Shown here: positions 40,477 to 62,086 of the stretch, piece after piece | How positions within the stretch are numbered: the first letter of the stretch is position 1 | Layout: the number at the start of each line of letters is the position of its first letter | NCBI RefSeq assembly: GCF_000526395.1 | Contig: NZ_JAFZ01000001.1 | Location: 372,001 to 436,000 of the forward strand | DNA: 64,000 nt | Source of the DNA: Aminobacterium mobile DSM 12262 | Lineage (GTDB): Bacteria > Synergistota > Synergistia > Synergistales > Aminobacteriaceae | Direction of reading: 5' to 3' | Notes under the pieces: model-generated | What the model was told of the DNA's origin: nothing | Databases searched by the model: none | Seen by the model: only the letters and a program-made list of their open reading frames with translations | Made by a program: the position numbers and the translations under genes

Positions 40477-40626
40477 GGCAGAGTAGGCGACTTTGCGTTA
40501 AGTGCTTAGGGATGGGACGTTGCCCTGAGACGAAAAGCTTTCACCAGCTTGCGGTAGGCCGCCGCGTTCGCTGCCACATCGATACGTTACTCCTTTGATG
40601 TGGCAGACCTGCCCATAAAGGAGGCG
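40477..40626 (+). promoter_or_regulatory. Tetrahydrofolate riboswitch controlling folT
   Basis: The aptamer spans about 40477-40575: P1 GGCAG (40477) with CTGCC (40571-40575), then AGAGTAG, GCGTTAAGTG, GGGATGGGACGTTGCC, GACGAAAAGC and GCGGTAGGCCGCCGC, which match the THF-I riboswitch consensus in order. The expression platform is visible. CTGCCACATC (40571-40580) can instead pair perfectly with GATGTGGCAG (40597-40606). In that form CTCCTTT (40590-40596) lies in the loop. Otherwise CTCCTTT can pair with AAAGGAG (40617-40623), which contains the folT ribosome-binding site. Translation should be shut off when the aptamer is bound. Confidence 0.88.
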
Positions 40627-40633
40627 TTCGTTT

Positions 40634-41185
40634 TTGAAAAAACAGCAAGGCAATTTGTTTAAGTATCGCTCTTCAACTCAGGAAATTGTCTATATCTCTC
40701 TCCTCGTAGCTTTGAATATTGTGCTAACCCGTATTGCGAGTATTCGAGTTCCCATGGCTGGTGTGGAAATGGTACGAATTGGTTTTGGCGCGTTGCCTGT
40801 GGTTTTTGCTGGGGTTTATATGGGACCCCGTGCAGGAGGGGTTGTAGGGGCGCTAGGGGACGCTATTGGATTCTGGATCAATCCTATGGGGCCGTATATG
40901 CCCCATTTCACTCTTACAGCAGCACTTACAGGGATTATCCCCCCCTTGGTCTTGAAGTGTTTTCATACCAAGGGAGACTACGCCTTCTGGCAGCTTCTTG
41001 TGGGGCTGGCAGTGGGGCAGACCATCACGGCGGTGTTGCTGGTTCCCTATTTTATGCAGTCTCTTTATGGAGTGCCAATGATAGTTACTATGATCCCTCG
41101 TATCCAGACTCAGGTAATTCAGATCCCCCTTTATGCTTTTTTGGTGAAGAGTATAGCGAGAAGAATGTCTATTGCCTTTGGATAA
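40634..41185 (+). CDS. folT: Folate ECF transporter S component
   Basis: 183 residues with five to six membrane segments. Motifs EIVYISLLVALNIVLTRI, RIGFGALPVVFAGVYMGP, GGVVGALGDAIGFWINPMGP and FTLTAALTGIIP match FolT, which binds folates and couples to a shared ECF energising module not encoded here. The tetrahydrofolate riboswitch directly upstream confirms the vitamin. It starts at TTG (40634), 9 bases after GGAGG at 40620-40624. A strong terminator follows, so it is monocistronic. Confidence 0.9.
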   Translation: MKKQQGNLFKYRSSTQEIVYISLLVALNIVLTRIASIRVPMAGVEMVRIGFGALPVVFAGVYMGPRAGGVVGALGDAIGFWINPMGPYMPHFTLTAALTGIIPPLVLKCFHTKGDYAFWQLLVGLAVGQTITAVLLVPYFMQSLYGVPMIVTMIPRIQTQVIQIPLYAFLVKSIARRMSIAFG

Positions 41186-59185: not shown

Positions 59186-59980
59186 TTAGAAGGCAGGAAC
59201 GACTCCACCGTTATATTTAGAGAGTATGAAGTCTTTGACTTTATCTGACTTTAAATGCTTTAAAAGTATTTGAAATTTGGGGTTATCTTTATCTTTTTCC
59301 CGAACGGCAATAATATTGGCGTAAGGGGATTCTGATCCTTCAAGAAGTATTGCGTCTTCCGTTGGTTTAAATCCAGCTTCTATGGCATAGTTCCCATTGA
59401 TAACAGCACCGTCCACATCTGGAAGAATTCGAGGTAATTGGGCTGCTTCGATAGGTTTGAATTTAAGTTTCCTGGGGTTTTCCACTACATCTCGTTCTGT
59501 AGCCTCTAGTCCTGCTTTGTCAGAGAGGGTGATAAGACCGTTGGCTTGAAGAAGAAGAAGGGCACGACCACCGTTAACACTGTCGCTTGGAATAGCTATA
59601 AGGGCCCCTTCTTTCAGTTCATCAACAGTCTTTATTTTTTGAGAGTAGAGACCGAGGGGTTCTACGTGGATACCGCCTAAAGAGGCCAATTTAGTGCCGT
59701 GACTTCCATTGAAATTTTCGAGGTAGGGGAAATGCTGGAAAAAATTGGCATCAATCTCTCCGTCATCTAGAGAGAGGTTCGGTTTTACGTAATCAGTAAA
59801 TTCAATGATTTCGAGAGTAACATTTTCTTGTGCCAGATCGTCTTTAATGACCTGCAATATTTCTGCATGGGGTACTGGAGAAGCTCCGATTTTAATAATT
59901 TCTTGAGCCAAGCTTGCAGAAGGTACTAAGGATATACAAAATAACGCAAAAATAGTAATAAAACGTGCTGATCTCTTCAT
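59186..59980 (-). CDS. metQ: D-methionine-binding protein MetQ
   Basis: About 264 residues, NlpA/MetQ family: KIGASPVPHAEILQVIKDDL, EFTDYVKPNLSLDDGEIDANFFQHFPY split by conserved spacing, and INGNYAIEAGF. An N-terminal signal (residues 7-26, ending SASLAQE) lacks a lipobox, so it appears to be a soluble periplasmic form rather than a lipoprotein. ATG 59980 is 7 bases after GGAGG; the TTG at 59986 is too close to it. Last gene of metNIQ. Confidence 0.9.
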   Translation of the reverse strand: MKRSARFITIFALFCISLVPSASLAQEIIKIGASPVPHAEILQVIKDDLAQENVTLEIIEFTDYVKPNLSLDDGEIDANFFQHFPYLENFNGSHGTKLASLGGIHVEPLGLYSQKIKTVDELKEGALIAIPSDSVNGGRALLLLQANGLITLSDKAGLEATERDVVENPRKLKFKPIEAAQLPRILPDVDGAVINGNYAIEAGFKPTEDAILLEGSESPYANIIAVREKDKDNPKFQILLKHLKSDKVKDFILSKYNGGVVPAF

Positions 59981-60038
59981 TTTCAAACCTCCATTTTAAG
60001 AATAGTTACTTCTGGTACTTCTTATGCTTTTTTATCCC

Positions 60039-60701
60039 CTAGCGGTTCCTTGATAGATATAGAGCGGTTCTATTCCCCGCAGCTTGAACTATCTGCACAA
60101 ATAATATGATGACAACTACTGCGGCTATAAGTACGTCTGTTTGAAAGCGGTGGAAGCCGTAACGAATAGCTAGATCTCCCAAACCGCCACCTCCGATGGC
60201 TCCTGCCATGGCTGAATAGCCAACAATGTTAATAATGGTAAGGGTCTCTCCCAACACAAGACCGGGCAGGGCTTCAGGTATCATGACCTTGAACACAATG
60301 TCTTTGGGGCTTGTCCCCATGGCTACAGCAGCTTCAATAAGTCCTTTGTCCACCTCCTTTAAAGAGCTTTCTACCACTCGTCCTACGAAGGGAGCGGCTC
60401 CGATAGAAAGCGGAACAATTGATGCTGTTGTTCCAATAGTTGTTCCCACAATCAATCGGGATAGAGGAAACAAAACAATCATGAGGATAATGAAGGGAAA
60501 CGATCGACATACATTTACGATCCCATTCAAAACCCCATAAAGCGGTTCATTTTCGAGAAGCCCCCCTTTTTCTGTAACTACAAGAGCTATCCCCAACGGG
60601 AATCCGAGGAGCGTAGCAAAAAAAGTAGAGAATAAAACCATATACAAGGTTTCTAACGTAGGTGTAGCAAGTAAGTTAAGGAGCGAAATCCATTTATCCA
60701 T
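60039..60701 (-). CDS. metI: Methionine ABC permease MetI
   Basis: 220 residues with five to six membrane helices. ETLYMVLFSTFFATLLGFPLG, the NVCRSFPFIILMI block and the EAA loop EAAVAMGTSPKDIVFKVMIPEALPG identify MetI. It overlaps metN by 8 bases. Confidence 0.92.
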   Translation of the reverse strand: MDKWISLLNLLATPTLETLYMVLFSTFFATLLGFPLGIALVVTEKGGLLENEPLYGVLNGIVNVCRSFPFIILMIVLFPLSRLIVGTTIGTTASIVPLSIGAAPFVGRVVESSLKEVDKGLIEAAVAMGTSPKDIVFKVMIPEALPGLVLGETLTIINIVGYSAMAGAIGGGGLGDLAIRYGFHRFQTDVLIAAVVVIILFVQIVQAAGNRTALYLSRNR

Positions 60702-61707
60702 TCCAAATCACATCCACTTCCACATTTTGTGCTCGTATGTAGGAAAGGGCAGAGTTTATCTGCTCGGGGTTGCCGGCAAGTTGAACTGTTAAATTACCAA
60801 TACGACTACTATGAAGATGGTCGATTTCGCCGGCAAGTATGTTAATTTCTGCGCCGCTTTTTTTTATAGCTTGAGAAATTACAGGTTTTTCAGCCATATG
60901 ACCGTTAAAAGAGAAGGTAACAATGGGGCACCCAGCCTCTCTTGGAAACTTCTCGTGGGAATATGTGGTGCGAGGTAAATGAGAAAGAAACTCTCGGGCT
61001 GTTGCCGATTGAGGCCGCATAAAAACGTCTTTAACAGGGCCTATTTCCACAACTTCCCCTTTTTCAAGCACTGCTACGCGATGGCATATCTGACGAATAA
61101 CTCCCATCTCATGAGTTACCAAGACAATCGTAATTCCCATTTTGCTGTTAATCTCTTCAAGGAGAGAGAGGATAGACTGAGTTGTTTTGGGATCAAGGGC
61201 GCTTGTGGCCTCATCGCAAAGAAGTACCCGAGGGTTATTGGCTAAAGCCCGTGCGATGGCAACTCGTTGTTTTTGTCCGCCACTTAACTGAGAGGGGTAG
61301 CTTTGGGCCTTGTCTGTAAGGCCTACTAGCTCGAGCATTTCATATACTCTCTTTTCCATAGATTGGCGAGACCATTTCCCTATTTCAAGGGGGAAGGCTA
61401 CATTTTGAAAAACGGTCCGAGAGGTGAGGAGGTTAAAATGCTGAAAAATCATGCCAATATGTTTGCGAAGAGCTCGTAGTTCCGATGTGGAAAGAGAGGT
61501 AATATCTGTTTCATCGATAAAAATTTTACCGCTAGATGGATCTTCCAGGCGATTAAGAGTTCGGAGAAGAGTTGATTTCCCGGCCCCGCTTAACCCTATA
61601 ATTCCAAAAATTTCTCCAGACTTGATCTCAAAACTAATATTATTTAGGGCTTTAAACTCGCCATTTTCAGAAATAAAACTTTTTCCTAAGTTCTGTATGT
61701 TGATCAT
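60694..61707 (-). CDS. metN: Methionine ABC ATPase MetN
   Basis: 337 residues. Walker A GLSGAGKSTLLRTLNRLE, GMIFQHFNLLTSRTV, signature LSGGQKQRVAIARALA and Walker B VLLCDEATSALDP. The C-terminal NIL domain (about residues 260-337) is the regulatory methionine-binding domain found in MetN. It is the first structural gene of metNIQ and lies 42 bases after a terminator hairpin that is preceded by a methionine-rich leader frame. Confidence 0.93.
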   Translation of the reverse strand: MINIQNLGKSFISENGEFKALNNISFEIKSGEIFGIIGLSGAGKSTLLRTLNRLEDPSSGKIFIDETDITSLSTSELRALRKHIGMIFQHFNLLTSRTVFQNVAFPLEIGKWSRQSMEKRVYEMLELVGLTDKAQSYPSQLSGGQKQRVAIARALANNPRVLLCDEATSALDPKTTQSILSLLEEINSKMGITIVLVTHEMGVIRQICHRVAVLEKGEVVEIGPVKDVFMRPQSATAREFLSHLPRTTYSHEKFPREAGCPIVTFSFNGHMAEKPVISQAIKKSGAEINILAGEIDHLHSSRIGNLTVQLAGNPEQINSALSYIRAQNVEVDVIWNG

Positions 61708-61748: not shown

Positions 61749-61785
61749 TAAAAAAGGCCGGACCTTCACAATGAAGGCCCGGCCT
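61749..61785 (-). terminator. Attenuator terminator upstream of metNIQ
   Basis: On the minus strand, arms 61785-61772 and 61768-61755 pair over 14 bp with one G-T pair (AGGCCGGGCCTTCA with TGAAGGTCCGGCCT), loop of 3, followed by six T residues. It lies between the leader peptide stop (61808) and metN (61707). An upstream segment at 61837-61820 can pair with 61796-61776 and so block it. Confidence 0.88.
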
Positions 61786-61807
61786 GATTTATGGTCAACA
61801 AACAGCG

Positions 61808-61891
61808 CTAAACTGCGCCGACCACACCAGGAGGGCCGCCGCACATGCACATCATCATGCTATTCATAGCTATTACCATGATTATATTCAT
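61808..61891 (-). CDS. Methionine-rich leader peptide of metNIQ (27 residues)
   Basis: An ATG frame of 27 codons ending in TAG, too short for usual gene finders. AAGGAGGG (61905-61898) sits 6 bases before the ATG, the strongest kind of ribosome-binding site in this window. Met codons are at residues 1, 5, 9, 12, 13, 14 and 16, so MMMCMC runs at residues 12-17, followed by GGPPGVVGAV. A terminator hairpin with a T run follows 22 bases past the stop and before metN. I infer that it is the leader of a transcription attenuator sensing charged methionine (possibly also cysteine) tRNA. No S-box or T-box was seen instead. Confidence 0.72.
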   Translation of the reverse strand: MNIIMVIAMNSMMMCMCGGPPGVVGAV

Positions 61892-62086
61892 GCTATTCCC
61901 TCCTTATTTCTTAAAGGTGTGATGCGCAAATTGTGGCATATGATATATGAAATATGGTGCTGTGTCAACCTCAAGGGTCACCGAATACCTCCAAATGACA
62001 ATGTGCCACCCCATGTTTTTCCAAGATGTGAGAATAACGATTAGATTACTCTATGAGTTAGCGCTTAAAAACAACAAGAATTTTTC
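61892..62086. promoter_or_regulatory. Upstream region of the met leader
   Basis: About 195 bases between the leader peptide and the 3' end of the aldolase-VOC gene. It must contain the metNIQ promoter, but no strong -35/-10 pair stands out. No gene is seen. Confidence 0.3.

Follow-up and report, generated by a model that had tools for sequence, protein, structure and literature searches.

The metNIQ locus of Aminobacterium mobile DSM 12262 raises the question of whether the expression of a methionine transporter can be governed by a leader peptide that reads methionine codons. Leader-peptide attenuation is textbook knowledge for Trp, His, Thr, Phe and the branched-chain amino acids, and methionine control is normally ascribed to SAM riboswitches, T-boxes or repressors. 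The window analysed here is the whole stretch of 64,000 nucleotides (contig NZ_JAFZ01000001.1, positions 372,001 to 436,000 of the forward strand), and all coordinates refer to it. A preliminary description, made from sequence alone, had read the region ahead of metN as a methionine-rich leader peptide with a trp/his-type attenuator. The anatomy, conservation, co-variation, geometry and gene association of such Met leaders are shown below. It is very likely that the leader of the window is a ribosome-mediated transcription attenuator reading charged elongator tRNA-Met, with the stalling, the read-through and the response to methionine being inferred.

Leader upstream of metNIQ

On the minus strand, the region from 61968 to 61749 contains, in this order, a promoter, an SD, a 27-codon ORF and a terminator with six T residues, which are followed by metN, metI and metQ:

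61940..61968, minus strand: sigma-70-type promoter TTGACA-17-TATCAT, 11 of 12 consensus positions (inferred, not mapped)
61898..61905, minus strand: SD AAGGAGGG of the leader (from the sequence), with a complement, CCCTCCT, in the antiterminator arm
61808..61891, minus strand: leader peptide ORF MNIIMVIAMNSMMMCMCGGPPGVVGAV with its stop codon, 27 codons, homologues in L009-L012
61841..61858, minus strand: control codons ATG ATG ATG TGC ATG TGC (MMMCMC, residues 12-17), the proposed stall site
61812..61840, minus strand: antiterminator 5' arm, codons 18-27 (folding, conservation and co-variation)
61773..61806, minus strand: antiterminator 3' arm, overlapping the terminator 5' arm (folding and conservation)
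61755..61785, minus strand: intrinsic terminator hairpin, 14 bp, 3-nt loop, about -26 kcal/mol
61749..61754, minus strand: terminator T run, six T (from the sequence)
60694..61707, minus strand: metN, methionine ABC transporter ATP-binding protein (best NCBIfam TIGR02314, E 1.6e-117, full length yet under the curated cut-off)
60039..60701, minus strand: metI, permease (NF008049, above cut-off)
59186..59986, minus strand: metQ, substrate-binding lipoprotein of the MetQ/NlpA family (NF008285 and TIGR00363, full length, below cut-off)

Seven of the 27 leader codons encode Met (positions 1, 5, 9, 12, 13, 14 and 16), and the stop codon TAG (61810-61808) sits inside the apical loop of the antiterminator (61811-61807). 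The 157-nt leader folds with -71.4 kcal/mol (z = -6.1 against dinucleotide shuffles), which, together with its conservation in relatives, argues that it is more than a product of chance; the 400-nt region contains two terminator-like sites, where shuffles predict 0.3. When the terminator 3' arm is left out, the sequence from 61845 to 61765 folds as a single antiterminator of -35.8 kcal/mol, with codons 18/19-27 paired with 61806-61773. In the fold of the full leader, the SD is paired with CCCUCCU of the antiterminator arm, its AGGAGGG being complementary to CCCTCCT (61835-61829). All of the elements named in the preliminary description held (the SD, the 27-codon frame with seven Met and MMMCMC, the 14-bp terminator with six T residues, and metN behind it), as did the competing structure, in which GGCCC, CCTGG and the region around TGGTC pair with 61799-61776. 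It had overlooked the near-perfect promoter (61968-61940) and the complementarity of the SD to the antiterminator arm.

The leader of the window matches no Rfam riboswitch (SAM-I, RF00162, is not above gathering score) and no Rfam T-box model. It reaches no Rfam family, the best being Thr_leader, whose 20.7 bits (E 0.13) fall short of the 55-bit cut-off. In this genome the SAM-I riboswitch is found once, upstream of metK, and there is no confident O-acetylhomoserine sulfhydrylase, with which a reliance on import fits. Elsewhere in the window, a THF riboswitch (40477-40575, plus strand, 77 bits) lies directly upstream of a FolT-like folate transporter ORF (40634-41185).

Distribution and co-variation of Met leaders

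The metN orthologues of G031, G030, G184 and G178 (79%, 78%, 70% and 69% identity, respectively) bear the same leader, with the consensus S/T-MMMCM[C/Y]-GGPP[G/D]-V[V/I]-[G/D]-A. Leader peptide, antiterminator and terminator are thus kept in two genera and families besides the species of the window. The DNA at the control codons, ATGATGATGTGCATG, is invariant among all five close homologues, and the -10 region of the promoter is also kept in homologues. On folding, all five leaders yield this antiterminator (-34 to -37 kcal/mol), its loop again containing the stop codon, and their terminators range from -25 to -32 kcal/mol. Third-position changes in the leader are mirrored in the terminator arm, such that GGC CCT of the window pairs with GGGCC, and GGT CCC of G184 and G178 pairs with GGGACC. 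The next metN orthologues (57-63% identity, mostly from family f6) have a SAM-I riboswitch immediately upstream of metN instead, so that SAM-I and the Met leader substitute for each other on this gene.

The narrow pattern MMCM[CY]GG, which is the window's own motif, is found in only five Synergistota genomes, and across 84,980 species it returned two Synergistota and three other matches (L044, L046 and L047), two of the latter being clearly chance matches within long ORFs. The idea of a narrow element, which this pattern had suggested, was dropped once the sequences ahead of other metN genes had been examined. In 21 of 60 further metN homologues, a scan of the upstream regions that asked only for short ORFs revealed a short SD-preceded ORF that has an MMMC core and a terminator behind it. 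Such MMMC leaders precede metN in many f8 and f1 genera, and their C-terminal sequences differ (e.g., GSSPDLAGA, GSSCDLPDA and HKVCAVR). Shorter MMC forms are found in g10.

A search with the pattern RNYATGATGATGTGY gave 124 matches in 90 of the 188 Synergistota genomes, compared with 10 for a backward control. A terminator lies downstream of 80 of the 88 short MMMC ORFs inspected. The genes behind these 80 leaders are metN (about 32), metQ (19), O-acetylhomoserine sulfhydrylase (18; TIGR01326, above cut-off), metX (1; NF001209, above cut-off) and an unnamed family of 418-429 aa (6), while the remaining four comprise two YeiH-like transporters, one orphan and one probable false match. Hence, at least 76 of the 80 precede metN, metQ, O-acetylhomoserine sulfhydrylase, metX or the unnamed enzyme-like family. 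It should be noted that the locus counts for the 80 include loci ending at metN by construction. Six of the eight ORFs without a terminator precede nothing related, and the other two have metQ and a solute-binding protein behind them. Counted by hand, the confirmed units span about 60 genomes, 33 genera and six Synergistota families.

The pairing between leader codons and terminator arm was assessed with a swap test, in which duplex energies were calculated for the leader codons downstream of MMMC against the segment that starts at the stop codon and runs through the terminator 5' arm, with partners either cognate or swapped among leaders. A base-composition effect that comes from one side only cancels out in such a comparison. 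For 66 sequences, cognate duplexes averaged -29.8 kcal/mol and swapped duplexes -22.1 kcal/mol (0 of 20,000 permutations), and for 25 dissimilar representatives the values were -27.4 and -20.1 kcal/mol (z = -8.8; 0 of 20,000 permutations). Limiting the test to the terminator 5' arm preserved the effect (-14.0 vs. -10.9, z = -6.6, 0 of 10,000 permutations), and the 40 nt downstream of the terminator, used as a control, displayed no cognate effect (z = -0.3). In a second control, the leader codons before MMM showed a smaller cognate effect with the post-stop region (-2.1 kcal/mol, z = -3.2). This control is not fully explained, and since it also shows a cognate effect, we would like to emphasize that the main figure is somewhat too high owing to relatedness or additional pairing.

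At one position across the leaders, ten different helices made only of Watson-Crick pairs occur. Helices at this position include GGAUCCUCG/CGGGGAUCC, GGGUCC/GGACCC, GGCUCC/GGAGCC, GCAGAGCCU/GGGCUCUGC, GACCCUC/GGGGGUC and GGUCCC/GGGACC. Because these helices vary in concert at the same place, peptide and RNA pairing change together while the Met run remains constant. A per-sequence shuffle test of arm complementarity reached p<=0.05 in 44 of 80 leaders and was not significant for the window (p=0.08); this test is weak for GC-rich arms, and the swap test is the stronger evidence. RNAalifold gave no consensus on a 61-sequence MAFFT alignment, as the arms differ in length, and the cognate-swap test was used instead.

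Several further observations concern leaders that depart from the common form. A second leader type, e.g., MRMxMMRFQDAC..RCRAP (g13/g15/g17), precedes metN at L086, L091, L097, L098, L194 and L196, and at L091 its FQDA codons TTCCAAGATGCC have their complement just upstream of the terminator, which suggests an independent Met leader design. Doubled or extended Met runs (MMMCxMMMC, MMMCMM) occur at L145, L146, L147, L161, L257, L258, L259, L261 and L262, and might mean stronger Met sensing. At L166 and L211, MMMC short ORFs stand before a YeiH-like (PF03601) membrane protein; their arm pairing is weak and their membership uncertain, and the protein could conceivably be an unrecognised sulfur or methionine transporter. 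L140 (G009:C4) has a complete MMMC leader and terminator with no met gene in the fetched stretch behind, and transposon-like frames lie nearby; leader and gene may have been parted by an insertion. A glycine riboswitch aptamer (L157:1226-1335, minus strand) is located near the metN locus of G036.

Proposed mechanism and rival explanations

The third Met codon (first base) lies a median of 15 nt (quartiles 13-18) from the first paired base of the antiterminator. The footprint of a ribosome extends about 12-13 nt past the first base in its A site. Comparison of the two suggests that the arm remains free whichever of the three Met codons the ribosome is waiting at. The stop codon, which is within or beside the apical loop in relatives, precedes the terminator 5' arm by a median of 26 nt (23-28). 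Complementarity between the SD and the arm exceeds that of shuffles (p<=0.05) in about 62% of 66 leaders (mean -11.1 vs. -7.1) and is missing in G178 and G184. We lean slightly towards regarding it as a protector pairing, one that is not present in every lineage.

In the proposed mechanism, a ribosome would follow RNA polymerase along the leader during transcription. When tRNA-Met is scarce, it would stall while its A site holds codon 12, 13 or 14, with its leading edge just before codon 19, leaving the antiterminator 5' arm (codons 18/19-27) free to pair with 61806-61773; this would use up the terminator 5' arm, and metNIQ would be transcribed. When Met is plentiful, the ribosome would reach the stop codon in the apical loop and melt the hairpin, so that the terminator forms. 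In an untranslated leader, the SD could bind the arm at its CCCUCC tract, and the terminator would again be favoured. The same device is predicted to act on Met transport and biosynthesis genes across the Synergistota, in several lineages behind a SAM-I riboswitch. Of the features that define a ribosome-mediated attenuator, the leader has an SD-led ORF, cognate codons, a terminator, a co-varying antiterminator and appropriate codon placement, while a rise in read-through on Met starvation is predicted.

The trp/his-type reading of the preliminary description is therefore supported by conservation and by co-variation of the antiterminator halves, with the methionine response itself being inferred. 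A lack of conserved Met codons or competing stems would have refuted that reading; both are conserved, in four close homologues from two families and then phylum-wide. Its proposal for a ribosome at the stop codon, namely that it would cover the 5' arm, held only in part; such a ribosome would cover the upper part and melt the apical hairpin, and the lower part left uncovered is complementary to the SD. Since Met is also the initiating residue, severe Met starvation should cut leader initiation and favour termination, a conflict that is absent from other amino-acid attenuators.

Four other explanations can be weighed against this model. A Cys residue after MMM is nearly universal and unneeded by a pure Met sensor, which leaves room for dual Met/Cys sensing, and its invariance stems partly from the search pattern. 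In the strong form of this idea, the leader senses both sulfur amino acids and stalling at Cys codons matters as much as stalling at Met codons. In its favour, Cys follows MMM in nearly all leaders, even those found without requiring Cys, the window reads MMMCMC, and the metL leader of Streptomyces lividans mixes both residues (CMCRRMC; PMC8079986). However, some leaders before the unnamed enzyme read MMMR (G041 and G026), the second Cys is frequently replaced by Tyr, Ser, Thr or Gly, and the downstream genes are Met genes rather than Cys genes, making dual sensing unlikely. Much less probable still is a nascent-chain arrest peptide that responds to Met or SAM instead of stalling at hungry codons. 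Pro-Gly motifs are known to slow ribosomes, and ends with such motifs (e.g., GGPPG and GSSPG) are kept within groups. Nevertheless, the C-termini vary freely between groups (GGPPG, GSSPD, GDPSE, GAPEG, RASLEQ, NGSFLMR and HKVCAVR) and change along with the terminator arm, the Met run alone being common to all.

An initiation sensor, in which scarce initiator tRNA-fMet would lower leader translation and the Met run would be secondary, has a precedent in the tRNA-fMet sensor suggested for the streptococcal fthC uORF (PMC11109978) and is favoured by the complementarity of the SD to the antiterminator arm. We consider it very improbable, because an untranslated leader is predicted to terminate, which is the wrong polarity for an importer, and because it would not account for an MMM run that is conserved and lies a ribosome's reach away from the arm. 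Finally, a constitutive terminator or processing site behind a chance short ORF, with no methionine control, has in its favour only that no expression data speak against it; it is contradicted by conservation, gene association, co-variation and pattern enrichment, and is all but ruled out. Attenuation by ribosomes stalled at Met codons remains the preferred reading.

Related systems, tandem loci and an unnamed family

The Met leaders resemble the trp/his/thr/leu attenuators of Enterobacteria and others (Rfam Trp_leader, His_leader, Thr_leader and Leu_leader) in their translated short ORF with regulatory codons, in the antiterminator built from leader codons and overlapping an intrinsic terminator, in the stop codon placed where a terminating ribosome would disrupt the antiterminator, and in the terminator outcome that is predicted without translation. 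They differ from these in that the regulatory codon is Met, which is also the initiator, in preceding met genes of Synergistota, and in standing in some cases in tandem with SAM-I. The uORF attenuator of Corynebacterium ilvB-II (PMC10272879; PMC11109978) likewise combines a uORF rich in pathway amino acids with a terminator and an antiterminator, but uses Ile/Leu/Val codons and belongs to another phylum. SAM-I (S-box) and Met T-box elements also control methionine genes through transcription termination; the former senses SAM and the latter senses uncharged tRNA directly, and the leader of the window matches neither.

The view of the preliminary description that a Met-codon attenuator is little or not described needs one correction, as a putative metL leader peptide before metNIQ has been annotated in S. 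lividans TK24 (PMC8079986). This short Met/Cys peptide, MSTTSDRTPATEATTTPGARCMCRRMCAF, shares the position upstream of metNIQ, but it is leaderless, rests on a single-genome annotation and has no Met run; according to its authors there is no typical intrinsic terminator, and no comparative or functional evidence was given (PMC8079986). Comparison of the published peptide alone revealed no visible sequence relation to the Synergistota leaders. Naville and Gautheret refer to T-boxes at Met transporters, without naming any Met leader (PMC2965389), and Stav et al. analysed one Synergistota genome without mentioning methionine in the main text (PMC6429828). No Met-codon attenuator besides the S. 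lividans metL was found in the open full-text literature searched, subscription journals and preprints being outside its scope. The mechanism class is thus old, and methionine as the sensed amino acid, backed by comparative evidence, is new as far as we are aware, subject to prior work that we may not have seen.

At nine loci from eight genomes and four families (L142, L143, L161, L228, L229, L230, L257, L263 and L266), a SAM-I aptamer that exceeds the Rfam gathering score lies 101-163 nt upstream of the MMMC codons of a leader. In six of the seven loci whose 5' UTRs were inspected, the aptamer and the SD of the leader are separated by a clear SAM-side terminator (-17 to -25 kcal/mol), the one in L263 being degenerate. 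As the two terminators are in series, both low SAM and low charged tRNA-Met would be needed for expression, a logic inferred from anatomy. The Met element may also be limited to a band of starvation, because Met starts translation as well. A bolder reading that we regard as likely is that of a phylum-wide Met-codon attenuation regulon (transport, MetX, MetY and the unnamed family), with a two-input NOR gate with SAM-I in several lineages and a Met element responding perhaps only within such a band, the SAM/Met logic again being inferred. The series arrangement appears to be new, with the same reservation about unseen prior work.

With a Met-codon attenuator that recurs across an entire regulon, leader-peptide attenuation gains an amino acid, a phylum and a pathway, and the question arises of how a leader can sense the amino acid required to begin its own translation. 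The tandem of SAM-I and Met leader would represent a natural circuit separating SAM sufficiency from Met-tRNA charging.

The unnamed 418-429 aa family occurs in 48 of the 188 Synergistota genomes, including this one; members include L278 (G000:C2:358673-359926), L160:125-1378(-), L231:613-1872(+) and L144:1640-2926(+). Pfam and NCBIfam returned no match for it, and among PDB sequences there was no meaningful one. An AlphaFold2 model suggests a barrel-type alpha/beta fold (mean pLDDT 86), for which the Foldseek matches were weak and limited to generic TIM barrels. Several family members have a Met leader (MMMC or MMMR) upstream. Being part of the Met-leader regulon, this barrel family is a likely candidate for an enzyme of methionine metabolism, a function that is inferred.
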